The notes under the pieces: model-generated
The model's input: the letters and a program-made list of their open reading frames with translations, nothing else
Told to the model about the DNA's origin: nothing
Database searches by the model: none
Shown here: positions 6,321-30,234 of the stretch, piece by piece
Layout of the letters: the number at the start of each line of letters is the position of its first letter
Numbering within the stretch: the first letter of the stretch is position 1
Made by a program: the position numbers and the translations under genes
From: a virus
Virus record (IMG/VR): IMGVR_UViG_3300010371_000088
Span: 1 to 31,172 of that record
DNA: 31,172 bases
Reading direction: 5' to 3' (one strand)

Positions 6321-6325
6321 AGCAG

Positions 6326-6398
6326 TGGATCTAGCCGGACTCGAACCGACAACCTGCCGCCTGCCGGACGGCTGCTCTCCCACTTGAGCTACAGACCC
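6326..6398 (-). tRNA. tRNA-Ala (anticodon GGC)
   Basis: Read on the minus strand this folds as a complete 73-base cloverleaf. The acceptor is GGGTCTG with TAGATCC, including a G3-T70 wobble, the alanine identity element. The D stem is GCTC/GAGC, the anticodon stem GCCGT/GCGGC with a terminal T-G pair, the variable loop AGGTT, and the T arm GTCGG-TTCGAGT-CCGGC. The discriminator base is A73. The anticodon loop CCGGCAG gives GGC, reading GCC, a dominant alanine codon here. Position 33 is C rather than the near-universal T, which is odd. CCA is not encoded. The gene is opposite in strand to the flanking structural genes. Confidence 0.9.
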
Positions 6399-6481
6399 TT
6401 GCGTGTCCGGGGTACCTCATCGCCCGGTCCCCGGGGGCGTGTAGTCGCTCCACCCGCAAGCGGGTCCCGGGCCCTCTGCCG

Positions 6482-6556
6482 TGGCGGGGGCGGGATTTGA
6501 ACCCGCGTCTCAGGCTTATGAGGCCTGCGAAGGTGACCGAACTCCTCCACCCCGCT
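6482..6556 (-). tRNA. Initiator-like tRNA-Met (anticodon CAT)
   Basis: A 75-base minus-strand cloverleaf. The acceptor is GCGGGG/CCCCGC with an unpaired A1-C72 end, followed by TGGAGG, a D stem pairing GAGG with CCTT (an A11-T24 pair), an anticodon stem CAGGC/GCCTG with loop CTCATAA, variable bases AGAC, and T arm GCGGG-TTCAAAT-CCCGC. The 1-72 mismatch, A11-T24 and the overall resemblance to bacterial initiator tRNA point to an initiator-type molecule. However, the three consecutive G-C pairs expected at 29-31/39-41 are interrupted (G, G, C with G, C, C). One extra base lies between the D and anticodon stems. CCA is not encoded. An isoleucine (lysidine) reading is less likely. Confidence 0.85.
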
Positions 6557-6641: not shown

Positions 6642-9494
6642 GTGACCCGCAGCCGCAACAAGCGCAACCGCACACGGACCACCGTGGCCAAAGCCCGCGC
6701 CGCCACCGGCCCCGTACCCGGCATGGCCGCAGAACGCAGCAGCAGCCTCAACGACCTCGTCAACCAGGCCACCGCACGCAGCCTCATCAACAACAACCCC
6801 CTCGCCCGCGACCCCCGCGACAACGACAACTTCGGCCCCGGCACCGCACTCACCCCCGCCGGCCTCGACCCCGGCCGCAACGACACCGGCCGCCCCGAAC
6901 CCCGCGGCTCCGAATACCCCGTCTCCTGGAACCTCCGCCTCAACGGCGAACGCCTCATCCCCTGGCAGATCCTGCGCGACGCCGCCGAAAACGTCGACAT
7001 CATCTCCGGCGCCATCCGCACCAGGAAGAAACACGTCCGCTCCCAGAAATGGGGCTGGACCGTGTCCGCCGACGCCATCCAGGACGCCTACCAGGCCGAC
7101 CCGCGCCGCGGCCAAGACGACATCGCCGCCGAGCTGCGCGAGAAGTACCGGCCTGAAATCGACCGGCTCACCAGGTTCTGGACCAACCCGTGGCGCGGCC
7201 ACCTACGCGGAGGCCTCGGCGCCTGGCTGAACATGCTGCAGGAGGAGGTCATCGTCCTCGACGCGCTCGTGATCTACCCGCAGCGCACCGTCGGCGGCGA
7301 CGTCCACTCCTTCCGCATCCTCGACGGCACCACCATCAAGCCGCTGCTCGACCGGCAAGGCCACACCCCGCAGCCGCCCTACCCGGCCTACCAACAGATC
7401 CTGTACGGCTTCCCCCGCGGCGAATACGTCGCCACACCGGCCGTCGACGACGAGGGCCGCGTCCTGCTCGATGCCGACGGCCACATGCAGGTCGACAACC
7501 CCTACCCGGCCGACCAGCTGTTCTACTGGCGCGAGACCGCCCGCACCTTCACCCCGTTCGGCCAGTCCGACGTCGAACGCGCCCTGATCGCCGCCCGCCT
7601 GTACCTGAAGCGTCAGGGCTGGATGTTCTCCGAGTACGACGACAACTCCACACCGGTCACCTGGCTCGTGCCCGAGGGCACCGACGCCGAGCAGGTTGAT
7701 GCCCGGCAGCGCCGCAAGTGGGAGGACTCCCTCAACGACGAACTCGGCGGCAAAACCCGCGCCCGCCACCGCGTGAAAGTCGCGCCGCCCGGGTTCCGGC
7801 CGGAGATGGCCCCGCAGGTCGACGAACGCTACAAGCCCGAATACGACCTGCACCTGATCAAGATGGTGGCGATGCAGATGGGCGTCACCATCGCAGAGCT
7901 CGGCTTCACCGAGGCCAAGGGACTCGGCTCGTCCGGCTACCACGAGGGCCAGGAGGACGTGCAGGACCGTGTCGGCCGCCGCCCCGACACCGAGATGATC
8001 GCCGAAATCATCCAGGAGCTGTCCCGCGACTACCTCGGCGCCCCGCCCGAGCTCGAGTTCCAGTTCACCGGCCTGGAATCCGAGGACGAGGCCGCCGCCG
8101 ACGAGGTCGCGCAGTCCCGTACCAGCTCCGGCCGCTCCACCCTGAACGAGGACCGCCGCCGCCAGGGCCAGCCGCTGTACAACTTCCCCGAGGCCGACAT
8201 GCCCATGGTGATCACGCAGCGCGGCGTGGTGTTCCTCGAGGGCGCCTCGCAGACGGCGCTGCCCGGTGAGCTGATCGAGCCGGTACAAGCGCCGAAGCAG
8301 ACCAACCCGCCCGAGGGCGCGGACGCCGAACCCGGCGACGGACAGCAGCAGAACGACGGCGAGCAGGACGACGGTGCCGACAGCGGCCAGACCCAGGAAG
8401 CCCCGGCACAACAGGCGAAAAAGCCAGCCGCCAGCACCGCCACGAAGAAGACCGCCGAACCCGCGACGCCCGCGGTCATCCCCGACCTGACACCCGAGCA
8501 GGTCGCCGAGGTCGTGGCATACCGCCGGTGGGCCGCCAAGCGCGGCGACAAGCCCGGCCGGCCGTTCCAGTTCAAGACCCTCACCTACGATCAGGTCCGC
8601 GCCGCCATCGACTCGGTCCCCCGGGCCTCGTTCCTCACCGCCGACCACCCAAAAGCATCAGCCCGGCAATGGCCGGGCTGGGAACGCGATGAGGCCACCG
8701 CCGCGGTCTACGTACCGCTGCTGAACAAGGCCGCCGCCGCAGCCATCGACGCCCGCTCGCTCGCCGGCGACTGGCTTGCCGAACGCGCGGCCGCCAAGGC
8801 ACTGAGCCCGCAGGCCGCAGACGCCGCCGCATGGCTTGCCGCACGCGGCGTCCCCACAGCCCTCGCCGAGGCTCTCGTCGAAGCGCTGACCGACGCCTAC
8901 ACCGAGGGCTATCTCATCGGTGACCGTGCTGCCGCCGCCGTCGTCACCGGCGTTGCAGTCGACTGGTCCGGCTGGACACCCGGCGACCCGGAGGCCGCCC
9001 GACTCATCCTCAGCCAGGCAAGCGACGGATCCGGACTCGCACGGCTCCTCGACGAGGCCGGCGTCACCATCCAGTCCATCGCCAGCAGCCGCATCAACGA
9101 GCTCGGGAAGGTGCTTGCCGCAGCCCTGGAGAACGGCGACTCCCCGGATACGCTCGCCCGCGCCCTGCGCACCGTCCTTACCGACCCGCGCTGGGCCGAT
9201 CTCGTCGCGGTCACCGAGATCAACCGGGCTACCTCCGCGGCCACCCTCAATACCTACGCCGCCATGGGCGTTGCCGCGAAGTCGTGGATGACCGCCGAAG
9301 ATGACCGCGTCTGCCCCGAGTACTGCGAACCGGACGGTCGAGACGGCGCCATCCCCCTCGGCGCCCTGTTCAGCTCCGGCGACCAGGCCCCGCCCGCACA
9401 CCCCCGATGCCGCTGCGCCATCGACGCCGCAGACATCACCCCCGCCGAGGCAGCCGACTTCGACGTGGCCGACCTGAATGGAGAAGACGGATGA
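6642..9494 (+). CDS. Portal protein fused to a MuF-type head morphogenesis domain
   Basis: A 950-residue protein starting at GTG 6642 (ATG 6640 is followed at once by TGA). Residues about 90-520 match a siphophage portal: SWNLRLNGERLIPWQILRD, KMVAMQMGVTIAELGFTE and GYHEGQEDVQD. This is the ring through which DNA enters and leaves the head. Residues about 548-620 are a disordered Gln/Asp/Ala/Lys/Pro linker. The C-terminal third ends in VTEINRATSAATLNTYAAM and AHPRCRC (about residues 860-925), the signature of the SPP1 gp7/MuF family, which is usually a separate gene after the portal. The fused arrangement would deliver one MuF domain per portal subunit. It overlaps the protease gene (ATGA). 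Confidence 0.9.
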   Translation: MTRSRNKRNRTRTTVAKARAATGPVPGMAAERSSSLNDLVNQATARSLINNNPLARDPRDNDNFGPGTALTPAGLDPGRNDTGRPEPRGSEYPVSWNLRLNGERLIPWQILRDAAENVDIISGAIRTRKKHVRSQKWGWTVSADAIQDAYQADPRRGQDDIAAELREKYRPEIDRLTRFWTNPWRGHLRGGLGAWLNMLQEEVIVLDALVIYPQRTVGGDVHSFRILDGTTIKPLLDRQGHTPQPPYPAYQQILYGFPRGEYVATPAVDDEGRVLLDADGHMQVDNPYPADQLFYWRETARTFTPFGQSDVERALIAARLYLKRQGWMFSEYDDNSTPVTWLVPEGTDAEQVDARQRRKWEDSLNDELGGKTRARHRVKVAPPGFRPEMAPQVDERYKPEYDLHLIKMVAMQMGVTIAELGFTEAKGLGSSGYHEGQEDVQDRVGRRPDTEMIAEIIQELSRDYLGAPPELEFQFTGLESEDEAAADEVAQSRTSSGRSTLNEDRRRQGQPLYNFPEADMPMVITQRGVVFLEGASQTALPGELIEPVQAPKQTNPPEGADAEPGDGQQQNDGEQDDGADSGQTQEAPAQQAKKPAASTATKKTAEPATPAVIPDLTPEQVAEVVAYRRWAAKRGDKPGRPFQFKTLTYDQVRAAIDSVPRASFLTADHPKASARQWPGWERDEATAAVYVPLLNKAAAAAIDARSLAGDWLAERAAAKALSPQAADAAAWLAARGVPTALAEALVEALTDAYTEGYLIGDRAAAAVVTGVAVDWSGWTPGDPEAARLILSQASDGSGLARLLDEAGVTIQSIASSRINELGKVLAAALENGDSPDTLARALRTVLTDPRWADLVAVTEINRATSAATLNTYAAMGVAAKSWMTAEDDRVCPEYCEPDGRDGAIPLGALFSSGDQAPPAHPRCRCAIDAADITPAEAADFDVADLNGEDG

Positions 9495-10791: not shown

Positions 10792-12471
10792 GTGTACCAG
10801 GTGCCCACGCCGTCGGAGATGTTCTCCGACACCACGGACCCCACAGAGATCGCCCGCCGCTTCGAGGAGTACAAGGCGACCTTCCGCGACGTGATCCGCC
10901 AGGCCGAGGAAGAGCCCGGCTTCTACGTCAAGGGCCACGGCATCATCCGCGACCCGTCCGCGCAGATCGCGAAGCTCGACGGCGCCATCGCCAACATCAC
11001 CAAGGGCCTGTCCGCTGACCAGCTCGGCGGCATCCAGGGCGACCTGGACCAGATCCAGGCCATGAAGGCCGACCTGGCCAAGGACTGGCAGTCCTCGGCG
11101 TACAACTCCCGCACCGGGCTGATGCAGTACGACCTGCAGGCGCCGGCGAAGAAGATGGTGCCGCGCGAAACCCCGCTGATCAACGAGCTGACGCGGGACA
11201 ACACCGGTGTCGGTGGCGCGTGCGAGTTTCGCCGGGTCCTCGGCTGGTCCAACTCGCGCACCGGCGGTGTCGCCGACCTGATGGCCGGGTTCAACTCCGA
11301 GACCACGACCACCACGTTCGGCGGGGTCACGGGTCTGCGCCGCCCCCAGAAGATCACGTACGCGACCGACTCGAAGATGATCGCCTACGTCGAGCAGGGC
11401 CTGTCCGACTCGGTCACGCACAAGGCGCAGTACCAGGGCAGGGGCTTCGAGAACATCATCTCCCTGTCGCAGACGGCGCTGCTGTGGGCCACCAAGGGCG
11501 CCGAGGAGCGCGCGGTGCTGTACGCCCGCGGCGCCTCCGCCAACGGCTACCTCGGCGCCGTCACCGCCCCGACGATCTCGCAGTCGTCCAGCTCCACCGG
11601 CGGCAGCATCGGCGCCGCGACCTACTACATCAAGGTCACTGCGAACGCCGGCGGTGGCGAGTCCGTCGTCTCCAACGAGGTCAACACCGGCGCCCTGTCC
11701 GGCTCCACCAACTCGATCACGGTCAATGTGACCGCGGAACCGACCGGGGCGCTGAACTACAACCTGTACGTCGGGACCTCGACCGGTACCGAGACCTACC
11801 AGACCTCGTTCGTCGGCAACTCCTTCGTGCTGACGACCTACGCCGGCGGCGGCGCGGCCATGCCTGGCGCCGACTCCACTGTCTCCAGCGGCGGCACCCT
11901 GTACGACGGCATGCTGTCGGTGCTGACCGACCCGGCCCAGTCCGGGTACATCAAGCGCGTCAACGCCAAGCTGTCCACGTCGAACCCGGGCGATGAGTTC
12001 CAGCAAATGTTCATCGGCCTGTACGGCGCGAACGTCATCGGCGCGGGCGACAAGCGCCTGGCCAACCCCGACGTGGTGTACGTCGACGGCGGCGTCCGCA
12101 AGGAGATGTCGGACCTGCTGAAGAACAACGCCAGCACGACCTCCTACCGGATCAGCCTGTCGCAGGGCGAGAGCCTGGGCGGCACGTCGGTCGGCGCGCT
12201 GGTGTCCGGGATCGTCAACGAGGTCACCGGCAAGATGCTCGACTTCGAGGTGCACCCGTACATGCCGGCCGGTGCGGCGTTCGCCTGGTCCAAGACGCTG
12301 CCGGTCCCGAACTCCGAGATCAGCAACACCTTCGAGATCCGGAACGTCCAGGACTACATGGCCTACAAGTGGCCTGACATCCAGATGACGTACGACCAGT
12401 CGACGTACCAGTACGGGACGCTCGTGCCCTACGCGCCGGCCTGGTCCGGCGCGCTGCTCGGCATCCAGTAA
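10792..12471 (+). CDS. Major capsid protein with inserted Fn3/Ig-like domain
   Basis: A 559-residue protein from GTG 10792, with ribosome binding site AGGAGA at 10782-10787. The N-terminal 120 residues are helical and charged, like the delta/scaffolding region removed in HK97-type capsids, and the following sequence (RETPLINELTR, ADLMAGFN) fits the HK97 fold. Residues about 256-362 are Ser/Thr/Gly-rich and read as a beta-sandwich (TYYIKVTANAGGGESVVSNE, then NYNLYVGTSTGTETYQTSF), a fibronectin-III or Ig-like domain inserted in the shell protein. The capsid fold then resumes (GMLSVLTDPAQSGY onwards). Size is large for the family because of the insert. A hairpin follows the stop. Confidence 0.88.
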   Translation: MYQVPTPSEMFSDTTDPTEIARRFEEYKATFRDVIRQAEEEPGFYVKGHGIIRDPSAQIAKLDGAIANITKGLSADQLGGIQGDLDQIQAMKADLAKDWQSSAYNSRTGLMQYDLQAPAKKMVPRETPLINELTRDNTGVGGACEFRRVLGWSNSRTGGVADLMAGFNSETTTTTFGGVTGLRRPQKITYATDSKMIAYVEQGLSDSVTHKAQYQGRGFENIISLSQTALLWATKGAEERAVLYARGASANGYLGAVTAPTISQSSSSTGGSIGAATYYIKVTANAGGGESVVSNEVNTGALSGSTNSITVNVTAEPTGALNYNLYVGTSTGTETYQTSFVGNSFVLTTYAGGGAAMPGADSTVSSGGTLYDGMLSVLTDPAQSGYIKRVNAKLSTSNPGDEFQQMFIGLYGANVIGAGDKRLANPDVVYVDGGVRKEMSDLLKNNASTTSYRISLSQGESLGGTSVGALVSGIVNEVTGKMLDFEVHPYMPAGAAFAWSKTLPVPNSEISNTFEIRNVQDYMAYKWPDIQMTYDQSTYQYGTLVPYAPAWSGALLGIQ

Positions 12472-13133: not shown

Positions 13134-13451
13134 ATGCCGCCCGCTAAGAGGACCACCACCCCGGCCGGGAAGACCGCCGCCGCGGCTAAGAAGGCCGAGG
13201 CCGTCGTCGAGGACGCGGTCGAGCACGTCGCCGAGATCTGCCGCGCCTGCTGGCCGAACGGCTGGCCGCACCTGTCCCACTCGGCCAGCTGCGACCACGG
13301 CACCTACGTGCGCAACGCGGCCGAGGCCCCCGCCGCAGGCGACGAGAAGACCGCCGAGGAGAAGACCCCGGCCGACGACAGCAAGACCTCTGCCGAGGAC
13401 GGCAAGACCCCCGAGGACGCCCCGCCGACCGGAGAGACCACCGGGGACTGA
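13134..13451 (+). CDS. Small Lys/Ala-rich protein with a Cys/His core and acidic tail
   Basis: ATG 13134 follows the preceding stop by one base; GAAGGA lies about ten bases upstream. The 105-residue product has three parts: a basic Lys/Ala/Thr/Pro start (residues 1-25, like the tails of histone H1 or actinobacterial HU), a Cys/His centre (EICRACW, HLSHSASCDHG) that could bind zinc, and a Glu/Asp/Lys/Thr-rich disordered end. I do not recognise a family. Position suggests a head-associated product. An earlier in-frame start at 13104 would overlap the previous gene and is less likely. Confidence 0.65.
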   Translation: MPPAKRTTTPAGKTAAAAKKAEAVVEDAVEHVAEICRACWPNGWPHLSHSASCDHGTYVRNAAEAPAAGDEKTAEEKTPADDSKTSAEDGKTPEDAPPTGETTGD

Positions 13452-13454
13452 CCC

Positions 13455-13829
13455 GTGGCCGCCGTCGTCGTCACCGTCGAACCCCCGAGAAGAAAGTGGG
13501 TGATCTCCATGGACCTGGAACGGATCAGCTCCCTGTCGCTGGAGCAGCTGCGCTTCCCCGTGTTCGCCGACGCCGCCGGCGCCCCGGTCAACCCCACCTC
13601 GTACACGGTGCAGGTGGCGTTCATGGGCGCCTCCAACACCAACCCGGCCGTCGGCGACTGGAAGACGGGCGGCTGGGACACCACCGCCATCGGCACCTAC
13701 GTCGCCACCGTCCTCGTCGGTCCCGGTGGCGCGGCCAGCCCGGCCCCGGGCACCTGGTACGTCTGGGTGCAGATCAACACCGGCACCGAGGTCATCGTCC
13801 GCCAGGTCGGCGAGCTGGAGGTCGACTAG
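13455..13829 (+). CDS. Ig-like beta-sandwich protein of the head module
   Basis: 124 residues if started at GTG 13455, which lies three bases after the previous stop; an internal ATG at 13509 would give 106 residues beginning MDLERISS. The body is beta-rich: TSYTVQVAFM, then GTYVATVLVGPGG, then GTWYVWVQINTGTEVIVRQ. This is the pattern of a single Ig-like sandwich of the kind found beside phage connectors and capsids. No catalytic residues. The stop overlaps the connector GTG (TAGTG). Confidence 0.7.
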   Translation: MAAVVVTVEPPRRKWVISMDLERISSLSLEQLRFPVFADAAGAPVNPTSYTVQVAFMGASNTNPAVGDWKTGGWDTTAIGTYVATVLVGPGGAASPAPGTWYVWVQINTGTEVIVRQVGELEVD

Positions 13830-14752
13830 TGGCCATCGCAGCGAACGTCGGCGTCACCTCGACGCCGCGGATGGTGCCGTACCTGTCGGTCGACATGATG
13901 AAGAACCACCGGCGCCGCGGCGTCCAGCTCGACAACCTCGTGCCCCGCGGGCGGGCCGACGAGCAGGACGCGGCGCTGGCCGAGCTCATCGAATCCGCCT
14001 CGGTGTGGATCGACGACACGGTCCTGATGCCGATCGGCGGCCTCGCCGCCACCTATGACACCATGCTGAGCGAGGTCAGTCCCGACCGGTACGGCTCGGT
14101 GCGGCTCCATCCCCGCTGCCAGCCTGTGATCGCGCTGGCGGACTTCTGGTCCGGCCCGGCGGCGAACATGCTCACGCAGGCCACTGACTTGTCGGTGGCC
14201 GCAGTGCAGCCGGACCGGATCACCATGCCAATCGGTGGCGCGCTGTCGTGGATGTCCGACCAGGGGCCGCTTCAGTTCGGTGCCGGGTCGCTGCCGGACG
14301 AGCGGCTGTGGGTGAAGTACACGTACATCAACGGCTTCCCCGTGACCCAACTGACCCAGGCTGTCGCAAAGGGCGACCTGGCAATCCACGTCGACGACTG
14401 CACCGGCATCATCGCCGGCCAGACCTGGCTGACCGTGTACGCGCTGCAGAACCGCATGCGGTTCCTGGCCGGGACAGTGTCAGCGACGTCCGGGCCCGGG
14501 ACCGTCGCCTGCCCGGCCGCGCCGTACGCGATACCCACCACCGGCTACAGCCCGCCGATGGTGTCGGCGCTGCCGCAGAGCGTCATCGAGGCCGCGGTGC
14601 TGGTGGTGCGGGCCATGGTGAAGGAGGCCGGCGGCGGCTCGTCCAAGCCTGCCGGAAAGCACAGCGGCAGCAGCGAGGAGGAGGCCACGGCCGGCGACGA
14701 CTACGCCGAGGCCGAAGCGTTCCTCCACACCTACATCCTGCCGATCGAGTAG
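13829..14752 (+). CDS. Head-tail connector protein (putative adaptor)
   Basis: Starts at GTG 13829, overlapping the previous stop by one base, and gives 307 residues. The opening helices (ADEQDAALAELIESASVWID) and the ending helices (SVIEAAVLVVRAMVKEA and a C-terminal YAEAEAFLHTYIL) resemble the helical connectors that sit under the portal (gp6/gp15-like). Between them is a beta-rich insert at about 175-240 (VAKGDLAIHVDDCTGIIAGQ), which looks like a module seen again in the tail proteins. A Gly/Ser/Lys-rich loop precedes the last helix. Assignment is by position and architecture. Confidence 0.65.
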   Translation: MAIAANVGVTSTPRMVPYLSVDMMKNHRRRGVQLDNLVPRGRADEQDAALAELIESASVWIDDTVLMPIGGLAATYDTMLSEVSPDRYGSVRLHPRCQPVIALADFWSGPAANMLTQATDLSVAAVQPDRITMPIGGALSWMSDQGPLQFGAGSLPDERLWVKYTYINGFPVTQLTQAVAKGDLAIHVDDCTGIIAGQTWLTVYALQNRMRFLAGTVSATSGPGTVACPAAPYAIPTTGYSPPMVSALPQSVIEAAVLVVRAMVKEAGGGSSKPAGKHSGSSEEEATAGDDYAEAEAFLHTYILPIE

Positions 14753-14763
14753 GGGGTGCGACT

Positions 14764-15282
14764 TTGACCGCGTCCCCGAACCCCGGCGGCCAGAACCGGC
14801 GGCTGGTCCGTACCGCGCTGGCGCAGTGGCTGATGGCCCAGCGGATCCAGGGCCTGGACCACGTGTACCGGTCCCGGCCGCCAGAGGCCGCCCTGGACCT
14901 GTACCGCAACGGTGCGGCGCCGTACTCGTGCCAGGCCTGGATCACGATGCCGTCCGACGGCGAGGAACGGCTGGTGAAGACCGGCCCGATCCTGCCCACC
15001 GGGAAGATCATCCACTACACGGTGCGGCTGGAGATCTGGCACAAGTCCTACGAGCCCGGCGAGAACGACTGGGCCGACGACGAAGACGACTACGACCGCA
15101 TCTACGACGCGCTGAAGGACTGCCTGCGCGCCGGCGGCCGGCAGATCGGACGCGGCGACGCGATCGTGTCCGTCGGCGAGTTCCGCGAGGGCCTGGCCGG
15201 CCAGCATGGCGAACCCGAGGAAGACGACGGCGCGGTCGAGCGCAACGGTGCCCTGTCGTTCATCGTGACGCAGGTGATCTGA
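14764..15282 (+). CDS. Neck / tail-completion protein (putative)
   Basis: No ATG or GTG is placed well; TTG 14764, with AGGGGG at 14751-14756 eight bases upstream, is the best start and gives 172 residues. The sequence has a helical N-terminus (RRLVRTALAQWLMAQRIQG), a beta-rich centre with WITMPSDGEE and HYTVRLEIWHKS, then DDYDRIYDALKDCLRAGGR and a final strand FIVTQVI. That alternation fits tail-terminator or neck proteins found between connector and major tail gene. The precise role is inferred from gene order. Confidence 0.65.
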   Translation: MTASPNPGGQNRRLVRTALAQWLMAQRIQGLDHVYRSRPPEAALDLYRNGAAPYSCQAWITMPSDGEERLVKTGPILPTGKIIHYTVRLEIWHKSYEPGENDWADDEDDYDRIYDALKDCLRAGGRQIGRGDAIVSVGEFREGLAGQHGEPEEDDGAVERNGALSFIVTQVI

Positions 15283-15283
15283 C

Positions 15284-16015
15284 ATGGCCACCTCCCGACG
15301 CCGCAAGTGGACCGCTCAGGAGCGGGCTGCGCTCTCGGCGAAGCTGCGCGCCCAGCACCGCAAGATGAGCGCGGCTCAGAAGGCGAAGCTGCGGGCGTCG
15401 CTGAAGAAGCGGCTCGCCTCCATGTCGAAGGCGCAGAAGCACGCGCTCGCCGAGAAGCGCGTCGCCTCGATGCGCAAGCACCTCGCGGCGATGACGCCGG
15501 CACAGCGTGCCGCACGCAAGGCCGCGATGTCGGCGAAGCGGAAGGCGACGCTGGCGAAGCTGACGCCCGCACAGCGTGCCGCACGCAAGGCAAAGGCCTC
15601 GGCCGCGCGGAAGGCCGCGAACGCCCGCCTCACCCCGCAGCAACGCGCGTCCCGGGCAGCGAAGCGACACGCCAGCCTCGCAGCGCACCTGGCCGCGCTC
15701 ACCGCCGACCAGCGGGCCGCGCGCAAGGCGAAACGGTCGGCGATCGCCAAGCGGATCAACGCCGCCATGTCGCCGGAGAAGAAGGCCGCCCGCGCGGCCA
15801 GGCTCTCGGCGGCCATCAAGCGGCACAACGCGAACATGACCGCCGCGCAGAAAGCCGAACGGTCTGCGAAGCTCCGGGCCGCCCTGAAGGCGCACCCGCG
15901 TACCCACCACTCGACGAAGGGCCAGCACCATGCCGGACACCACTCCGCCGGCCAAGTCCGGCACACGACGCGCAGCCGCCGCAGCCGAACCACCCGCCGA
16001 AGCCGTCGTGGCTGA
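15284..16015 (+). CDS. Highly basic Ala/Lys/Arg protein of nine tandem repeats
   Basis: ATG 15284 follows the previous stop by one base. The 243-residue product is about half Ala, Lys and Arg. It consists of nine repeats beginning near residues 9, 28, 47, 70, 93, 116, 139, 162 and 185: two units of 19, then units of 23. Each starts with Trp/Met/Leu-Thr/Ser, two variable residues and Gln/Lys-Arg/Lys-Ala (for example TPAQRAARKA), followed by a Lys/Ala helix. Residues 206-243 are His-, then Arg/Ser/Thr-rich. The layout resembles the KAxAKK-type tails of histone H1, HU or NUMOD3-like basic repeats, so nucleic-acid binding is likely but unproven. The last 86 bases also encode the start of the next gene. 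Confidence 0.75.
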   Translation: MATSRRRKWTAQERAALSAKLRAQHRKMSAAQKAKLRASLKKRLASMSKAQKHALAEKRVASMRKHLAAMTPAQRAARKAAMSAKRKATLAKLTPAQRAARKAKASAARKAANARLTPQQRASRAAKRHASLAAHLAALTADQRAARKAKRSAIAKRINAAMSPEKKAARAARLSAAIKRHNANMTAAQKAERSAKLRAALKAHPRTHHSTKGQHHAGHHSAGQVRHTTRSRRSRTTRRSRRG

Positions 16016-16265
16016 GCCGGAGACCGCCGTCGAGGCGCCGGCCGCGGCCGAGCCGGTCGAGGACGACGCCCCGCCGCCGCCGAAGCCGGGCTGGTATCGC
16101 AACAGCGGCCCGGTCGACCTGATCGTGCAGCCGCACAACTACCCGTCGACGCAGCTGGAGCCGGGCGAGGCCACGTGGCTACCCGACGACCCGCAGCACC
16201 GCGACATCGAGCCCTGCGACGAGCCGCCGCCGGCCGCCGCCGACACCGCCGGGAGTGAGAAGTGA
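15930..16265 (+). CDS. Acidic Pro/Ala-rich protein upstream of the major tail gene
   Basis: From ATG 15930, with GAAGGG about eight bases upstream, the product is 111 residues; a GTG at 16008 would give 85 residues and avoid most of the overlap with the repeat protein. The N-terminal half is Ala/Glu/Pro/Val-rich and disordered. The centre has a compact motif, GWYRNSGPVDLIVQPHNYPS, followed by LEPGEATWLPDD, which looks like a small beta fold. The end is acidic. No family recognised. It overlaps the major tail start (GTGA). The choice between the two starts is open. Confidence 0.6.
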   Translation: MPDTTPPAKSGTRRAAAAAEPPAEAVVAEPETAVEAPAAAEPVEDDAPPPPKPGWYRNSGPVDLIVQPHNYPSTQLEPGEATWLPDDPQHRDIEPCDEPPPAAADTAGSEK

Positions 16266-17530
16266 CCACCGCCGTCTACCCCTCTGGAAAGCAGGCGGTC
16301 GCTGTCTCGGTGGAGACCGGGCCAGGCGTGCCGAACAACACGATCGCGGCCTGGGTGCCGGTCACCAAGTTCGACTGGAACGACCGGCCGACCTGGTTGG
16401 AAGACAAGGCGCTGCGCGGGTCGATGGCCGTCGACGCGTTCGGCATGGTGCTCGGCGTTCAGATCGGCGAGCTGACGGTCGAGGGCCCGGTCTACTGCGA
16501 CACGACCCCGTTCTTCGTCGCGAACCTGCTCGGCGATGTCACCACCACCGGCACCGCGACCACACCGACCGGCACGCTGTCGTCGTCGTCGATCGTCGGC
16601 GCCACCTCGGTGTCCTCGTCGGTGTCAATCCCGGCCAGCACCCTGATCCAGATCGACACCGGCAACCTCGCCGAGATCGTCACCACCTCCGGCGCCCCCA
16701 CCGGCGTCGGCCCGTACACCATCCCGGTCCCGGCGCTGACCAAGCCGCACGCGTCGGGTGTCGCTATCACCGCGATCCAGTCCACCGGCCCGAACCTGCA
16801 CGCGATCTCGCTGATGAACTCGGGCCAGGGCCGCGGCCAGGGCACGAACTCCTGCCAGCCGTCGACGCTCACGATCTCGCAGTACTACGGCCCGGCCGCG
16901 ACCTCCGGCGGGCGGCAGTTCACCTCGGTGGTGTTCACCGAGATTAGCTTCAAGTGGAACGCGGAGAGCGAGTTTCTGACCTGGACCGGTAAGGCGATCG
17001 CCTGGGTCTCGGCCATCCCGGCGACGTTGACCGCGCCCACCTACAGCACCGCCTCGCCGCTGCCGTCGTGGCAGGGCGTGCTGGGTTTGGCTGGCCCGGC
17101 CTCTGGCGGGACGCTGGTGAAGACGGTCGAGACCGCGGAGTACAACCTGAAGCGGACCGCGTCGGCGAAGTTCACCGGGCAGAACAGCCAGAACCCGTAC
17201 ATCATCGCGCGGGGCGACGTCAGTGCCGACTGGAAGTCGTCGTTCATCGCCGCCGACGAGTCGCCGCTGCTGTATATGCGGAACAACACGCAGCCTCAGT
17301 ACCAATGGATCTTGTCCAACGGGCTGTCCGGTGCCGCCGCGCTCGCGATGCAGGTGGACATGCAGGCCGCGGCATTCACCGAGGTCAAGCCGAACTTCGG
17401 CAAGGAGCTGATCGGCTTCGACGCCACCGGCAAGGCGATCATCAACCCGACGAACGCGGGCTACAGCGGCGGCATGTCGCCGATCAAGCTGACGTTCACC
17501 AACGCCATCGCAGCAGGGACCTTCGTCTGA
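16262..17530 (+). CDS. Major tail (tube) protein with inserted beta module
   Basis: 422 residues from GTG 16262, overlapping the previous stop. The first 90 residues (GVPNNTIAAWVPVTKFDWND, then KALRGSMAVDAFGM) and the later parts (SFKWNAESEFLTWTGKAIAW, SADWKSSFIAADESPLLYM) are beta-rich and fit a tail-tube protein. Gene order, immediately before tail chaperones and tape measure, supports this. Residues about 95-175 are Ser/Thr/Val-rich and look like an inserted beta domain related to segments in the connector and minor tail protein. Length is greater than simple tube proteins because of this insert. The stop overlaps the chaperone ATG. Confidence 0.8.
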   Translation: MTTAVYPSGKQAVAVSVETGPGVPNNTIAAWVPVTKFDWNDRPTWLEDKALRGSMAVDAFGMVLGVQIGELTVEGPVYCDTTPFFVANLLGDVTTTGTATTPTGTLSSSSIVGATSVSSSVSIPASTLIQIDTGNLAEIVTTSGAPTGVGPYTIPVPALTKPHASGVAITAIQSTGPNLHAISLMNSGQGRGQGTNSCQPSTLTISQYYGPAATSGGRQFTSVVFTEISFKWNAESEFLTWTGKAIAWVSAIPATLTAPTYSTASPLPSWQGVLGLAGPASGGTLVKTVETAEYNLKRTASAKFTGQNSQNPYIIARGDVSADWKSSFIAADESPLLYMRNNTQPQYQWILSNGLSGAAALAMQVDMQAAAFTEVKPNFGKELIGFDATGKAIINPTNAGYSGGMSPIKLTFTNAIAAGTFV

Positions 17531-18236: not shown

Positions 18237-18679
18237 TGGCGGGAACAGTGTCGCTGGCGTGGCACGGCGTGTCCGAGTGGAACGCCGCCATGGAGCAGCT
18301 GGTCGTCCGTGCGAACAAGGCGTGTGAGCGCGGCGCGAACAACGCGGCCAAGCTCGTCGCGACCGAGACTAAGAAGAAGCTGACCACAACCACGCACCGC
18401 AAGGGCACGCCGACGCCGTCCCGTCCCGGACAGCCGCCGTCGCTCGTGACCGGCACGCTACGCCGCGGCGTCATCATCGTGCCGGCCAAGCCGGTCGGCG
18501 GTACCGCATGGGCATCCCAGGTGGGGCCGACATCGGTCTACGCGCGCGTGCAGGAGCTCGGCGGCGACACTGGCCGCGCCGTGCTGCCGGCCCGCCCGTA
18601 CCTGGCTCCGTCGGTCGACAAGCTCATCGGCGACGGCAGCCTGTGGGCGGCGTTCGCGTCCGGTTGGGACCGGTTCTGA
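18236..18679 (+). CDS. HK97 gp10-like tail-completion / minor head protein
   Basis: 147 residues from ATG 18236, overlapping the previous stop; its own stop overlaps the tape-measure ATG. The sequence contains TPSRPGQPPSLVTGTLRRG, a stretch VYARVQELGG, and LPARPYLAPSVDKL. Together these are the signature of the HK97 gp10/SPP1 gp16-type family that joins head and tail. Such genes normally precede the major tail gene, so a place between the chaperones and the tape measure is unusual. No charged catalytic set is visible, so it is structural. Confidence 0.82.
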   Translation: MAGTVSLAWHGVSEWNAAMEQLVVRANKACERGANNAAKLVATETKKKLTTTTHRKGTPTPSRPGQPPSLVTGTLRRGVIIVPAKPVGGTAWASQVGPTSVYARVQELGGDTGRAVLPARPYLAPSVDKLIGDGSLWAAFASGWDRF

Positions 18680-21405
18680 TGGGCCTGGGTCTGTTGCCGC
18701 CGGTCGTGGCCGAGCTGATGATGGATCTTCACCAGTTCAAGGCTGGCGCCGATGAGGCCGAAGCCAAGTTCGGCGGCTTGAAGGCGTCGGGCTCGGCCGC
18801 ATTCGACAAAATCGGCAAAGCGACCGTGCTGGGTGTCGCCGCCATCGGCGTCGCCTCGATCAAGATGGCGTCCGACTTCGAGACGCAGATGACGCGGCTC
18901 TACACCGCCGCCGGCGCCCCGAAGGCCGCGGTGCAGAACGCCTACGGCACGGTACTGAAGCTCGGCGACGCCGTCGGCCAGACCGGCACCGCCATGGCCG
19001 AGGCGCTGTACCACCCGGTGTCGGCCGGCCTGGACCTGAACACGTCGCTGGAGGTGGTGAAGTACAGCGCCGAGGAGGCCGCGATCTCGGGCGCGAACCT
19101 CGACGACACCACCTACTCGCTGTCCAGCGTGATGAAGGCGTTCAATCAGAACGCCAGCGAGGCCCACACCACCATGGCCCTGCTGAACGCGATCGTCGGC
19201 CAGGGCGACATGACGTTCCAGGACTTCAACCAGTCCGTGTCGAACTGGGCCCCGACCGCGGCGCAGATGGGCATCTCGGTGCAGTCGATGGGTGCGGCGC
19301 TGGCCTACCTCACCGACCGCGGCAACAGCGCGCAGGAGGCTGCGACCCGCGTCACCATGGGCCTGACGATGATGGCCTACCCGTCGCAGAAGGCGGCGAC
19401 GATGCTTAAGGGCCTCGGCGTCGCCACCTCCGACGTCTCGGCGTCTTCGCAGGCGTTCACGTCGGTGATGCAGAAGACCGGCATCACCCAGAACCAGCTC
19501 GCTGAGGACCTGAAGAGCCCCGACGGCATCTACGTCGCGCTGAACCACCTGAAGACGGCGCTGTCGAACGCCGGCGTCTCCGCGACCGAGGCCGACTCGA
19601 TCATGTCGCACATCTTCGGCGGCGGCCGATCGGACAAGGCAATTCTGTCGCTGATGCAGAACCTCGACGGCCTGAAGACGAAGTTCACTGACATCGGCGC
19701 CGCGAGCAACACCTTCGACCAGTCCTGGTCGGATGCGCAGCAGACTTTCTCCTTCAAGATGAAGAAGCTCGGCGCGGACATCGAGAACGTCGGCATCTCC
19801 ATCGGCACCAAGCTGATCCCGATGGTGGAGGCCGGCGTCGGCTGGTTCGCCAAGCACAAAGCGGCGACCGAGGCGCTGGCCGCCGTCATCGGCGGACTGC
19901 TCACCCTGTCGGTACTGAAGTTCGCGCAGACCCTGACCACCACGTTCCTCGCGGCCATCGGGAAGGCCATCACCGGGGTCAAGGCTTTCGCGACCGCATC
20001 CACGACGGCGGCAGTCGAGGCGGACGGTGCCGCCGCCGCGTCGGTGAAATGGTCCTCGGCCCTGGGGAAGGGCATCCCGATCATCGGTGCTGTCGCGCTT
20101 GGTGCGCAGGCGCTGGCCGGCTGGGTTCAGCACCTTGGCGAGAAGAGCGTGGACTCCGCCGCCGAGATCAACAAGATGAACACCGAGCTGCTGAACATCG
20201 CGCAGAGCGGATCGGCAGCGAACACGAACTTCGCCCAGCTCGCGATCACCGCCACCAAGTCCTCGGCCCTGAAGGACCTTTTCAAGCCGATCGACGCCAG
20301 CCTCGCGCAGCTGGTCCAGGGCGGGAATCTCCAGACCGCTCAGAAGGACATCGCCGCGATCGATGCCCAGCTGAAGGCGGCCGGTCTGTCCACCGACGCC
20401 TTCCACAACTCGCTGTCGAAGTTCTCAGACGCGGCTGGCGCCTTCGTCGTCCAGCAGCGGGCCAACGCCCTGGCAACCGGCGGCGCCACGGCGGCCACCG
20501 ACGCCAACACCGCGGCGATGGGCGACGCGACCGGCGCCATGAACACGGCCACCGACGCGGCGAACAGCACCGCCGATGCGATCAACGCCGTGGACGACGC
20601 ATTCACGCAGCTCTCCGGCAACATCTCCTCCTCCGGGATGCTGCACGAGTTCCAAAAAGATCTCTTGTCGGTCAAGGACACCCTGGACCAGAACGGCAAA
20701 TCCTTCAACGACAACAGCCTCGACGGGCTGAAGAACGAGGAGGCGTTTCGCGCCGCCGCGCAGGCGATCTCGGAATACCGCGATGCCCAGGTGAAGAACG
20801 GCGTCACGACGGATGCCGCCAACAAGACCGCCGCCGATCAGGCCGGGCAGCTGATCAAGGTGTGGGAGCAGCTGACTGGCAATAAGAAGGCTGTTGATGC
20901 CTACGCCACGAGCCTCGGCTTGGTCCCGAAGAACTTGTACACCGACGTCACCGTGAACATGGCGCAGGCGCAGGCGGCGTTCAACCAGTACCAGAACGAC
21001 CTGGCCAGCATCACCGGCGACACGTCGCACGCCTACACGCACAAGGCCGGCGGCGGCCTCGTACGCGGGGCGGGAACCAGCACCTCCGACAGCATCCCGG
21101 CGATGCTGTCCGACGACGAGTTCGTGGTGAAGGCTGCGGCGGTGCAGCAGTACGGGGTGCCGTTCCTGGACTCGCTGAACTCCGGTACCGCCCCGGCAGC
21201 TGCAGCGATGTCCGCGCCCGCCTACAGCGGCGGCTCGGCCTACGGCGGCTTCACAGGCCCCGGCGGCTTCAACAGCGCCGCACCCAACATCTACATCTAC
21301 CTCGACGGGCAGGAGCTGTCCGGGGCGATGCGCACCGCCACCCTCCAGTACGACAACCGGAACAGCGGCAATGGGCTGGGCCTGACCGGGGGCGGATTCC
21401 GGTGA
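18679..21405 (+). CDS. Tape measure protein
   Basis: 908 residues from ATG 18679, overlapping the previous stop. Residues about 5-60 contain MMDLHQFKAGADEAEAKFGG and a hydrophobic helix, followed by the TP901-like core (SASSQAFTSVMQKTGITQN, SATEADSIMSHIFGG). A central hydrophobic stretch (about 380-440, GWFAKHKAATEALAAVIGGL) and Ala/Thr/Asp-rich coiled segments follow. The C-terminal 150 residues are Gly/Ser-rich with GGGLVRGAGTSTSDS. The length predicts a tail of roughly 130-140 nm, using the usual 0.15 nm per residue. No lysozyme or peptidase domain is visible. It overlaps the next gene (GTGA). Confidence 0.92.
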   Translation: MGLGLLPPVVAELMMDLHQFKAGADEAEAKFGGLKASGSAAFDKIGKATVLGVAAIGVASIKMASDFETQMTRLYTAAGAPKAAVQNAYGTVLKLGDAVGQTGTAMAEALYHPVSAGLDLNTSLEVVKYSAEEAAISGANLDDTTYSLSSVMKAFNQNASEAHTTMALLNAIVGQGDMTFQDFNQSVSNWAPTAAQMGISVQSMGAALAYLTDRGNSAQEAATRVTMGLTMMAYPSQKAATMLKGLGVATSDVSASSQAFTSVMQKTGITQNQLAEDLKSPDGIYVALNHLKTALSNAGVSATEADSIMSHIFGGGRSDKAILSLMQNLDGLKTKFTDIGAASNTFDQSWSDAQQTFSFKMKKLGADIENVGISIGTKLIPMVEAGVGWFAKHKAATEALAAVIGGLLTLSVLKFAQTLTTTFLAAIGKAITGVKAFATASTTAAVEADGAAAASVKWSSALGKGIPIIGAVALGAQALAGWVQHLGEKSVDSAAEINKMNTELLNIAQSGSAANTNFAQLAITATKSSALKDLFKPIDASLAQLVQGGNLQTAQKDIAAIDAQLKAAGLSTDAFHNSLSKFSDAAGAFVVQQRANALATGGATAATDANTAAMGDATGAMNTATDAANSTADAINAVDDAFTQLSGNISSSGMLHEFQKDLLSVKDTLDQNGKSFNDNSLDGLKNEEAFRAAAQAISEYRDAQVKNGVTTDAANKTAADQAGQLIKVWEQLTGNKKAVDAYATSLGLVPKNLYTDVTVNMAQAQAAFNQYQNDLASITGDTSHAYTHKAGGGLVRGAGTSTSDSIPAMLSDDEFVVKAAAVQQYGVPFLDSLNSGTAPAAAAMSAPAYSGGSAYGGFTGPGGFNSAAPNIYIYLDGQELSGAMRTATLQYDNRNSGNGLGLTGGGFR

Positions 21406-25090: not shown

Positions 25091-25618
25091 ATGGCTCTCC
25101 CCATCCCGAACCCGCGGACCTATCAGGCGAGCGAGTTTGTGACCGGCGCATACATGAATGCGTTCCGGGACGCGATTAACTTCCTGGTCAACCGGCCCGG
25201 GGTGGTGCTGTATCAGGCCACGGCGCAGGCGATGGCGAACGCGACCTGGACCGCTGTCTCGCTCGACTCGACCCTGCTGGACAACTACGGCAGCCACAGC
25301 AACTCGACGAACAACTCGCGGTTCATCGCGCAGCAGGCCGGCTGGCACCGCGCGGCAGGCGGCGTCGGGTTCGTTCAGAACGCCACGGGCGCGGGTCGCG
25401 GTGCGGGCTTCTACAAGAACGGGTCGCCGTACACGGCGGGCACGTCGGTGGTCGGCAACTCCGGCAACATTCATGTGACCTCGGTGTCGCAGGACATCTA
25501 CCTGGCTGTGGGCGACTACCTGGAGCTGGCCGGATGGCAGAACTCGGGCGGCAACCTCAACTCGAACGGCTCCGGCCAGTATGCGTCGTGGCTGGCTGTG
25601 CGCTGGGAGGGCAACTGA
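25091..25618 (+). CDS. Tail fibre/receptor-binding-like protein, C1q-like
   Basis: 175 residues from ATG 25091 with ribosome binding site AGGAG (25081-25085) that overlaps the previous stop. The N-terminus (YQASEFVTGAYMNAFRDAINFLVNRPG) is a short helical attachment segment known from actinophage tail proteins. The rest is a compact beta jelly roll with QQAGWHRAAGGVGF, GAGRGAGFYKNG and YLAVGDYLELAGWQNSGG, similar in pattern to the C1q/TNF-like heads of phage fibres. The stop overlaps the next ATG (TGATG). Confidence 0.75.
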   Translation: MALPIPNPRTYQASEFVTGAYMNAFRDAINFLVNRPGVVLYQATAQAMANATWTAVSLDSTLLDNYGSHSNSTNNSRFIAQQAGWHRAAGGVGFVQNATGAGRGAGFYKNGSPYTAGTSVVGNSGNIHVTSVSQDIYLAVGDYLELAGWQNSGGNLNSNGSGQYASWLAVRWEGN

Positions 25619-26799
25619 TGCGCGCTCGAAGGTTCCTCGCTGCTGTCGCGACCGCGGCGTTGGTTCTGGCTGGGGTGGCGGCGTCGCCGTCGGCTGCGAC
25701 CGGGACGGGCTGGACGGCGTCGGCCGGCGTGGCCGAGGCCTATGCGCCGACGTCGGGCGGTTGGGGCGGGACCGGGGGTCAGACGCTGCGGATGCCGGTG
25801 CGGACGTCGCTGGGCGGCTCGCAGCTGCGGGTGCGGCTGACGAACCGGTACGCGACCTCGGCGACTGCGATCGGGCACGTGACGATTGGGCTGCAGCAAG
25901 GCGGCGCGAACACCACGGGGGCGCCGGTCACGGTGACGTTCGGCGGTTCGCAGGCGCTGACGATGGCGGCCGGCGGCTCGGCGGTGTCGGATCCGGTGGC
26001 GCTGTCCGTGGCGGCGAACTCGCGGCTGCTGCTGAGCGTTTACATCCCGCCGGGGGCGAACGCGCTGCCGCCGCGGCACGATCTCGCGGACGCGACCGGC
26101 TACAACTACAACGGCGGCGACGCGAGCGCGGCAAGCGTCTTCCCAGTCGGCAACACCTTCAGCTTCGTCGCCATCTTCGACGGCCTGGACGTCTCGGCGG
26201 CCGCGCCGTCCACGGTCGTGGTGGTTGGCGACTCGATCAGCGACGGGTTGAACCTGGCGGCCGACAGCGACACGCGCTGGCCGGACCGGCTCGCGGCCCG
26301 GGTCGCCCCGCTCGGCCTGGCGGTCGTCAACGAGGGCATCAGCGGCGACGACGTCACCTACGACCAGACGACCGCGCCCGGGATCGCCACGCGCTGGGCG
26401 ACGGACGCCCTGGGGCCGGCCGGGGTGCGGACCATCATCATGCAGGGCGGGATCAACGACATCCGCACCGGCGTCCCTGTGACGACGCTGGAGGCGTCGG
26501 TGCAGCAGCTCGTCGTCCTTGCCCACAACGCCGGCGTCAGGGTACTGCTGACGACGCTGACGCCGATGGCCGGGTCGTCCGGGGACAACGCGACCGAGGA
26601 GAGCGCGCGCTCGGCATACAACGCGTGGGCGGAGTCAGGGGCGTCCGGCGCTGACGGCGTCGTCGACCTCGACGGCGCCTTGCACGACCCCGCGAATCCC
26701 GCCGCGATGCTCGCGGCCTACGACAGCGGCGACCACTTGCATCCGAACGCGGCCGGCGACGAGGTCTTGGCCGACGACATCGACGTCAGCAAGCTGTAG
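25618..26799 (+). CDS. Secreted SGNH/GDSL hydrolase
   Basis: 393 residues from ATG 25618, overlapping the preceding TGA. It begins with a Sec signal peptide (basic RARR, then LAAVATAALVLAGVAASPSA), giving predicted cleavage near residue 27. Residues 30-190 form a beta-rich domain (TLRMPVRTSLGGSQLRVRL) like the N-terminal half of Streptomyces secreted SGNH hydrolases. The catalytic domain has GDSISDG (Ser206), a block II glycine (NEGISGDD, 238-245), GGIND (Asn280) and DHLHPN (Asp372, His375). The catalytic set is complete, so it should be an active esterase or lipase; the substrate is unknown. A signal peptide on a gene inside a phage late operon is unusual and suggests capture from a host. 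Confidence 0.9.
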   Translation: MRARRFLAAVATAALVLAGVAASPSAATGTGWTASAGVAEAYAPTSGGWGGTGGQTLRMPVRTSLGGSQLRVRLTNRYATSATAIGHVTIGLQQGGANTTGAPVTVTFGGSQALTMAAGGSAVSDPVALSVAANSRLLLSVYIPPGANALPPRHDLADATGYNYNGGDASAASVFPVGNTFSFVAIFDGLDVSAAAPSTVVVVGDSISDGLNLAADSDTRWPDRLAARVAPLGLAVVNEGISGDDVTYDQTTAPGIATRWATDALGPAGVRTIIMQGGINDIRTGVPVTTLEASVQQLVVLAHNAGVRVLLTTLTPMAGSSGDNATEESARSAYNAWAESGASGADGVVDLDGALHDPANPAAMLAAYDSGDHLHPNAAGDEVLADDIDVSKL

Positions 26800-29035: not shown

Positions 29036-29662
29036 ATGGCGACTTTGACCCGCGCGGTCCGGGACCGCCTCTGGCATATTCTGCTGGCGACGCTGCTGGT
29101 GATTCTCGGCCTGGTCGTGTACACCATCATCAATCTGCACGCGACGTCGAACCAGCTGAAGCAGCAGGCAAAGGTCGTGGACGCGCTGTCGTCGAACCTG
29201 GCCGCCGCGCAGGCGCAGCTGAAGCAGCACGGGATCCAACCGGCGCAGCCGGCGCCTTCGCAAATCATTGCCCAGGTCGGTCCCCCCGGTGCGGTGGGTG
29301 CAACGGGCCCGGAGGGCAGGGAAGGTCCGTCGGGTGCGAGTGGGGCACCTGGGCCGGCCGGGCCGACTGGCCCTGCGGGGCCGTCCGGGCCTTCGGGAGC
29401 GTCCGGGCCGTCCGGGCCAACAGGCACGCTAGGCGGCCAGGGCCCGAGCGGGCCGGCTGGCCCGAGCGGACCGCCGGGTCCGACGGGGCCGAGCGGCGCT
29501 CAGGGTTCTGCTGGCGAGCCGGGCAGTCCCGGCGGCCCGGGGCCGTCAGGCCCGGCACCGTCCGGCTGGGTGTATGTGGAGACGCCGCCGATCGGGAACC
29601 CGCGGACGCACACGTGCGTGCCGTCGTCTGAGGGCCCGTCGCCGTACTACGCCTGCAGCTGA
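29036..29662 (+). CDS. Membrane-anchored collagen-like protein
   Basis: 208 residues from ATG 29036, which follows the previous stop by one base. The N-terminus is cationic, followed by a membrane segment (WHILLATLLVILGLVVYTII, about 13-32). Residues 37-65 make a short coiled coil (NQLKQQAKVVDALSSNLAAA). Residues 82-174 are about 31 uninterrupted Gly-X-Y triplets (GPSGPAGPSGPPGPTGP is a sample), a collagen triple-helix repeat. The last 34 residues (GWVYVETPPIG, then two Cys) form a small terminal knob. A trimer held in the membrane with an external collagen stalk is likely. Function is not known; exterior display is inferred. Confidence 0.85.
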   Translation: MATLTRAVRDRLWHILLATLLVILGLVVYTIINLHATSNQLKQQAKVVDALSSNLAAAQAQLKQHGIQPAQPAPSQIIAQVGPPGAVGATGPEGREGPSGASGAPGPAGPTGPAGPSGPSGASGPSGPTGTLGGQGPSGPAGPSGPPGPTGPSGAQGSAGEPGSPGGPGPSGPAPSGWVYVETPPIGNPRTHTCVPSSEGPSPYYACS

Positions 29663-29730: not shown

Positions 29731-30234
29731 ATGCGCGTCCGTATTCTCGCCGCCGTCGCTGTGGCATGCCTGGCGGCCGGCTGCTCCAGCTCGTCCAGTA
29801 AGAAGCCTGTCGCCGCGGCTACGTCGGCGTCGACGGCCGCCGCGACGACCGTGGCCTCGTCGCCGTCCGCCACAGCGGACGTGAACATCGGCATCATGTG
29901 CTCGAATCTCGATGCGCAGATCAAGGATTTGGCGGATCTGCTGAGCAAGCTGGATACCGGCCAGTCGGTGCCGGCGTTCGGTATCGGGATCCCGATCGTT
30001 GGCGCATCCGACGCTGCGAAGAAGCTGATTTTGGATCATCCGAATGCCGGGATCAACTCGGACCTGACCGCGTTTGCCGGCGCTCTTGACGGCCTGGACG
30101 CTGTGGTCATCGCGGCGAAGCCGGATCCGAGTGCCATAGCAACGAACATCGGCAACGTCGAAACCACGTGGCTCTCGCTGTCCCGGCACTGCGGGTCGAT
30201 GGGCGACTACGCCTTCAGCAATCGGCTTGGGTAG
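29731..30234 (+). CDS. Phage-encoded lipoprotein
   Basis: 167 residues from ATG 29731, preceded by a very strong purine ribosome binding site (AAGGGGGG). A lipoprotein signal peptide (MRVRILAAVAVACLAAGC) ends with lipobox LAAGC, Cys18 being the likely lipid-bearing residue. A Ser/Lys and Ala/Thr-rich linker follows (19-50), then a globular, mostly helical domain with cysteines near residues 57 and 155 and a hydrophobic GIGIPIVGASDA segment. Phage lipoproteins often act in superinfection exclusion by blocking DNA entry; that is a guess here. Separated from the lysis genes by a hairpin, it may be its own unit. Confidence 0.82.
   Translation: MRVRILAAVAVACLAAGCSSSSSKKPVAAATSASTAAATTVASSPSATADVNIGIMCSNLDAQIKDLADLLSKLDTGQSVPAFGIGIPIVGASDAAKKLILDHPNAGINSDLTAFAGALDGLDAVVIAAKPDPSAIATNIGNVETTWLSLSRHCGSMGDYAFSNRLG

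Follow-up and report, generated by a model that had tools for sequence, protein, structure and literature searches.

The gene at positions 15284-16015 of the window (the whole stretch of 31,172 nucleotides analysed, from the virus record IMGVR_UViG_3300010371_000088) encodes a polycationic tandem-repeat protein, P0001, whose repeats resemble those of a known class of DNA-binding domains. P0001 is proposed to be a nuclease-free, DNA-wrapping repeat array made together with the virion and acting most likely on packaged or portal-proximal DNA, with a probability of about 0.5. Comparison with related phages further suggests that it represents a swappable polycationic slot protein that would bind viral DNA. 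No family in Pfam, PHROGs or NCBIfam names P0001, and no report of NUMOD3 or STPR ('score and three' repeat) arrays at a phage structural slot was found in the literature searched, the coverage of which was partial. Arrays in register with STPR in phages would extend this domain to bacterial viruses and tie it to the NUMOD3 module of phages. Whether histone-like proteins order the DNA inside tailed-virus particles is a question already raised for the archaeal virus HFTV1 (PMC12494034); the fixed slot and the existence of a cultured representative, Mufasa8, make the role of these proteins experimentally testable.

Coding evidence and characteristics of the product

The P0001 gene lies on the + strand, with its ATG at 15284, one base after the stop codon of the upstream gene, and its stop at 16015. 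A Shine-Dalgarno-like AGGTGA (15272-15277, + strand) is located 6 nt 5' of the ATG. The product has 243 amino acids, a mass of 26.6 kDa and a pI of 12.0, with 68 K/R against 5 D/E residues (net charge +63). The G+C fraction is 0.89 at third codon positions versus 0.67 and 0.62 at the first two, as in the neighbouring genes; homologues are present in seven other metagenomic phages, and dN/dS among relatives ranges from 0.09 to 0.39. The ORF is a genuine gene and evolves under purifying selection. The other strand and frames also carry long overlapping ORFs, as would be expected if the reading frame were a non-coding or wrong-frame artefact of GC-rich DNA, but this was refuted by the codon-position G+C, the ribosome-binding site, the homologues and the dN/dS values and retains a practically negligible probability.

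The protein ends in a His- and then Arg-rich tail (15905-16012, + strand), predicted to be disordered, and Arg-rich tails also terminate its relatives. The last 86 bases of the gene (15930-16015) overlap, on the same strand, the start of the next ORF (15930-16265) and encode most of the His/Arg tail of P0001 together with the Ala/Pro-rich start of the neighbour, so that the tail composition may be partly constrained by the overlap. This second ORF may instead start further on, with a GTG at 16008.

Repeat units and structure prediction

P0001 is composed of nine tandem units, two of 19 and seven of 23 residues, which start at residues 9, 28, 47, 70, 93, 116, 139, 162 and 185. The same division had been given by the original prediction, and it was confirmed by unit analysis and by a periodicity well beyond that of shuffled sequences (at shift 23 the self-identity is 0.47, whereas 2000 shuffles did not exceed 0.29 at any shift). 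All units are encoded on the + strand. The 19-residue units are unit 1 (WTAQERAALSAKLRAQHRK, 15308-15364), of NUMOD3-like length, and unit 2 (MSAAQKAKLRASLKKRLAS, 15365-15421). They are followed by the 23-residue units 3 (MSKAQKHALAEKRVASMRKHLAA, 15422-15490), 4 (MTPAQRAARKAAMSAKRKATLAK, 15491-15559), 5 (LTPAQRAARKAKASAARKAANAR, 15560-15628), 6 (LTPQQRASRAAKRHASLAAHLAA, 15629-15697), 7 (LTADQRAARKAKRSAIAKRINAA, 15698-15766), 8 (MSPEKKAARAARLSAAIKRHNAN, 15767-15835) and 9 (MTAAQKAERSAKLRAALKAHPRT, 15836-15904), of which units 4 and 5 are STPR-like. Unit 3 is the most position-specific, being recognized in relatives by the signature AKRxASMRKKLAA, and both it and unit 4 are identifiable in nearly all of them. 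The order of the units is kept between phages (in-order alignment beats shuffled order, P 0.001-0.024), and the relatives vary in length by whole units. The individual conservation of the units in order speaks for a defined array under selection and against random basic filler.

An AlphaFold model, obtained with six homologues, consisted of nine separate helices of about 20 residues, one per unit (residues 11-26, 30-46, 49-69, 72-91, 95-114, 118-137, 141-161, 164-184 and 187-203), with breaks at each Thr/Ser start. The pLDDT was mostly above 90, the pTM was low (0.39) and the tail was disordered. The continuous helix that had been deduced from the regular 23-residue spacing is thus replaced by a chain of short ones. 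Searches of the PDB by Foldseek and VIA-align returned no structural match, a result that carries no information where helices follow one another in a chain and make no tertiary contacts.

Relationship to the STPR domain

The best Pfam family for P0001 was STPRs (PF21107), at a sub-threshold 19.9 bits in hmmscan. The best stretch of the protein scored 22.6 bits, below the curated cut-off of 27 bits, and P0001 is for this reason called STPR-like and not filed as a member, although it has seven consecutive 23-residue units where PF21107 calls for at least three in tandem. Two relatives exceed the cut-off, L009 with 39.4 bits and L027 with 44.8 bits. The model matched 8 of the 10 phage records tried, which are all eight of the STPR-type ones, and none of 200 Streptomycetaceae or 396 phylum-wide actinobacterial genomes (about 590 in total; genome G001, at the least, occurs in both samples).

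The best PDB sequence match of P0001 was the STPR domain of FMBP-1 (5d23, E 0.001), aligned unit on unit. The order of residues within the unit matched this domain beyond column permutations, which keep the composition, period and conservation of the unit (P 0.0002), and the same value was obtained when columns were permuted only within residue classes. When residues 7-23 were compared alone, without the helix cap, P was 0.02 for P0001 and 0.001-0.013 for L002, L009 and L027, the figure for L027 being weakened by units partly out of register owing to one 19-residue unit. An origin of the match as an artefact of composition was ruled out by these permutations and by the absence of matches in the approximately 590 GC-rich genomes.

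The STPR domain of FMBP-1 is flexible when free and helix-rich on DNA, and a Glu4-Arg9 salt bridge is the mark to be sought in each unit (PMC4821344). It shares with P0001 the tandem 23-residue units in the register [ST]P.[QE][RK]A.R..[KR]MSA and a helical, basic character with a conserved Arg9, and P0001 would likewise be expected to order on DNA. By reading, Arg9 is present in six of the seven 23-residue units of P0001 and an acidic residue at position 4 in two of the seven; in L009 the respective counts are nine and six of ten, and repeat 4 of FMBP-1 itself has Ala4. P0001 differs from the FMBP-1 domain in having nine units (seven of 23 residues) instead of four, a weaker E4-R9 pairing, no conserved Tyr of MSAY, an N-terminal NUMOD3-like part, an Arg tail and a gene within a structural operon. 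The title of the 2005 FMBP-1 paper, as cited in PMC4821344, presents STPR as a DNA-binding domain whose conservation extends from C. elegans to humans. The assignment of P0001 to a DNA-binding type is well supported by these comparisons, and the resemblance to STPR could also reflect convergence on a helix-capped basic repeat.

The likeness to histone tails advanced by the original prediction did not hold. P0001 shares the Lys/Ala-rich basic composition of histone H1 and bacterial histone-like tails, but no histone, H1-like or HU profile was found for it in Pfam, PHROGs, NCBIfam or PDB sequence searches, and it is an ordered repeat with defined helix caps. Its best matches are STPR and, in its relatives, NUMOD3. 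Nucleic-acid binding, proposed at the same time, is made probable by homology to these two repeat types.

Relationship to NUMOD3 arrays

NUMOD3, which had been named among the profiles worth searching, gave a divided result: P0001 itself has no match to it (PF07460), whereas arrays of this motif occupy the same slot in relatives. The slot proteins of L016, L025 and L079 exceed the NUMOD3 cut-off, with scores that include 57.3 and 46.2 bits. The STPR-type proteins start with NUMOD3-like 19-residue units (in L002, GKHHKGHPMSAAAKAKLRARMKGKHHK), and units 1 and 2 align to the motif. These 19-mers are matched by columns 1-19 of the NUMOD3-type unit (P 0.0002) and by the 23-residue unit after removal of four contiguous residues (P 0.0005), the site of the four-residue insertion being poorly fixed by the alignment. 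One such insertion is seen in unit 2, which has 23 residues in L004 and 19 in the orthologous units. In a profile comparison of the STPR-type and NUMOD3-type groups the N-terminal part aligned with E 7e-11; the structure model of the NUMOD3-type protein was poor (pLDDT 64). The simplest reading is that the STPR-like 23-mers and the NUMOD3-like 19-mers are related forms that would differ by about one helical turn and have been converted into each other by its gain or loss.

In contrast to the GIY-YIG and HNH homing endonucleases that carry NUMOD3, the slot proteins are arrays only, under purifying selection and at a structural slot, and no nuclease domain (GIY-YIG, HNH) was found in P0001 or the relatives scanned. 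DNA-binding regions of the I-TevI type are arranged as beads on a string across the minor groove (PMC2988022).

Genomic context and distribution of the slot

On the + strand of the window, the major head protein (10792-12471; tblastn to annotated major head and capsid proteins) is followed by the head-to-tail adaptor (13829-14752), which matches Mufasa8 gp8 and the adaptor of THSA-485A. A tail-terminator-like protein (14764-15282), related by phmmer to the L025 terminator and to Mufasa8 gp9, lies directly upstream of P0001. Directly downstream and overlapping the P0001 gene is a small acidic protein (15930-16265) with a 59% identical relative in L025, followed by the tail tube, or major tail, protein (16262-17530), which matches the Mufasa8 major tail protein and a THSA-485A protein. 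The tape measure protein (18508-21405) was assigned by PHROG. The order adaptor, terminator, repeat protein, small acidic protein and tube is identical in L025, where the tube is 66% identical to that of the window and the array is NUMOD3-like; the adaptor, terminator and tube are also related to those of the cultured Arthrobacter phage Mufasa8. The original prediction was right in that a cationic repeat protein, foreign to the standard part list of siphoviruses, is encoded inside the structural operon.

Seven further contigs are of the STPR type (L002, L003, L004, L005, L007, L009 and L027). Their repeat gene has a connector gene on one side and a terminator-like gene on the other; next come the tail tube, a small tail gene, an HK97-gp10-like gene and the tape measure (in L003 only the first part of the connector was covered, and tape-measure matches are missing where a locus ends). 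L015-L024, a Kitasatospora humi prophage (L029) and another five Streptomycetaceae genomes have a NUMOD3 array with an Arg-rich end at the slot. Altogether the repeat-gene slot was seen in over twenty contigs and prophages. In Mufasa8, gp10 (QGJ93460.1, hypothetical protein) is located between the terminator gp9 and gp11 with the tube gp12; it has 157 amino acids and consists mostly of RKKPVYTHP repeats. It resembles P0001 in its slot (terminator, repeat, small protein, tube), its pI of 12 and its tandem repetition, but its nine-residue repeat has no sequence relation to the 23-mer. Among tube relatives, slot proteins of pI 12 were also detected in L049/L050 (the same protein), L056 (the L025 phage), L064, L073, L074, L076, L077, L078 and L079. 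About 20 other tube relatives had none by the filter used (for example L051, L057, L065, L066, L071, L075 and L081). As the slot is often empty the repeat gene is accessory, and as many tube relatives do without it, it is not needed for head-tail joining. Judging from these sequences, what the slot keeps is a polycationic repeat protein and not one particular sequence.

P0001 is closest to the repeat proteins of L002 and L027 (59-62%), phages whose capsid and tube genes are only remotely related to those of the window, while its tube is closest to that of L025, a pattern that would fit exchange at the slot. Genome collections yielded no STPR-type relatives; tblastn of P0001 or these relatives against annotated phages and plasmids gave no match, possibly in part because of the low-complexity filter. 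NUMOD3-type relatives reside in Streptomycetaceae prophages. The idea that the repeat protein is the missing stopper, since it seemed to stand at the place of the Neck1/head-closure gene of THSA-485A, was rejected: relatives with neither gene exist, and most loci of the STPR and NUMOD3 types have an HK97-gp10-like gene 3' of the tube.

In the Arthrobacter phage Sonali (L048), a relative of Mufasa8, an unannotated gap of about 157 bases (1780-1936) holds no clear basic repeat ORF, and the slot is therefore empty. Slot proteins of the window's tube lineage in L049 (1203-1745), L073 (3718-4140), L074 (3708-4148) and L078 (3637-4074) have in common a conserved basic motif at the C-terminus, about RERIRPSRFKHGRTRLPSRFKKGRRIRGMRSPFAAGRRHLRAWR; this motif matches no family, and P0001 lacks it.

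Proposed function and alternatives

Each 23-residue unit, by homology, would form a separate basic helix capped by Thr/Ser-Pro-x-Gln, and the array probably orders on duplex DNA, along a groove, as the STPR domain of FMBP-1 does. P0001 may coat or clamp phage DNA with little or no sequence specificity, none or little being needed at a charge of +63. Because of the slot and late expression, its target while particles are being assembled would be packaged DNA or the DNA end in the portal and neck, and it may leave with the DNA. Its location and role in the virion are read from the position of its gene, which is no proof that the particle contains the protein; charge neutralisation in the head and entry into the host, both raised by the original prediction, are likewise hypothetical.

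The strongest alternative is a late DNA-binding protein, regulatory or host-directed, that acts on phage or host DNA in the cell and never enters the virion; silencing, nucleoid remodelling and late-gene control would all fall under it. That FMBP-1 is a transcription factor (PMC4821344), that the I-TevI DNA-binding region acts as a repressor by itself (PMC2988022) and that the gene is accessory all agree with such a role, but in all relatives for which enough context is available the gene is tightly placed among structural genes, and it retains this position even when the repeat type changes, which leaves the regulatory role a minority prospect, though a substantial one. A neck or tail assembly or structural protein, with its basic helices on acidic proteins and no role in nucleic-acid binding, would be in line with the regular helical array of the model and with acidic neighbours (pI about 5 for the terminator; the small neighbour is acidic in Mufasa8 and THSA-485A). 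Such a protein is hard to reconcile with absence of the gene from many relatives, with repeat types that are those of DNA-binding proteins and with whole-unit variation in repeat number, which a protein locked into a symmetric ring would not usually show, and is considered unlikely.

NUMOD3 is typical of homing endonucleases, and the NUMOD3-type relative has weak PHROG matches to homing endonucleases; both would suit the remnant of a free-standing homing endonuclease whose nuclease has gone and of which only the NUMOD3/STPR-like DNA-binding repeats are left. A relic would decay or be lost, however, whereas the gene shows purifying selection and position-specific conservation of units and keeps to one slot in more than 20 contigs and prophages, with no nuclease remnant found, so this is a distinctly improbable account of the present protein, while such an ancestry may still describe the origin of the motif. 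Polycations also bind RNA, and the tail of P0001 is Arg-rich and disordered, but no RNA-binding family was matched, and a role as an RNA-binding or late-mRNA protein is given very little weight.

With DNA wrapping in the virion kept as the preferred reading, a broader and clearly more tentative proposal is that actinobacterial tailed phages possess a fixed neck-operon slot with an interchangeable 'DNA sleeve' gene, in which NUMOD3, STPR-like and (RKKPVYTHP)n arrays have been swapped and whose product would coat packaged or neck DNA. The STPR-like form would then have arisen from NUMOD3 by the gain of one turn, independently of animal STPR or as its ancestor.

Other features of the window

The portal ORF (6642-9494) includes a C-terminal head-morphogenesis (MuF-type) domain in one frame of 950 amino acids. 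Between the head protein and adaptor genes, a small ORF contains a 21-base tandem repeat (13362-13419) that encodes a KTPADDS-type heptad. Directly 3' of the tail genes, the ORF at 25534-26799 has a signal peptide and SGNH/GDSL hydrolase-like motifs (GDSISDG, HPNAAGD), that is, a secreted esterase-like enzyme in a phage. A collagen-like Gly-x-y protein with an N-terminal hydrophobic segment (29036-29662) matches tail-fibre and collagen-like tail PHROGs, and a small predicted lipoprotein (29731-30234; lipobox LAAGC) is a candidate superinfection-exclusion or moron-type gene. Predicted tRNA-Ala (6325-6398) and tRNA-Met (6481-6556) genes lie between the terminase and portal genes and a predicted tRNA-Ser (240-315) near the left end, all three on the minus strand, opposite to the structural genes.
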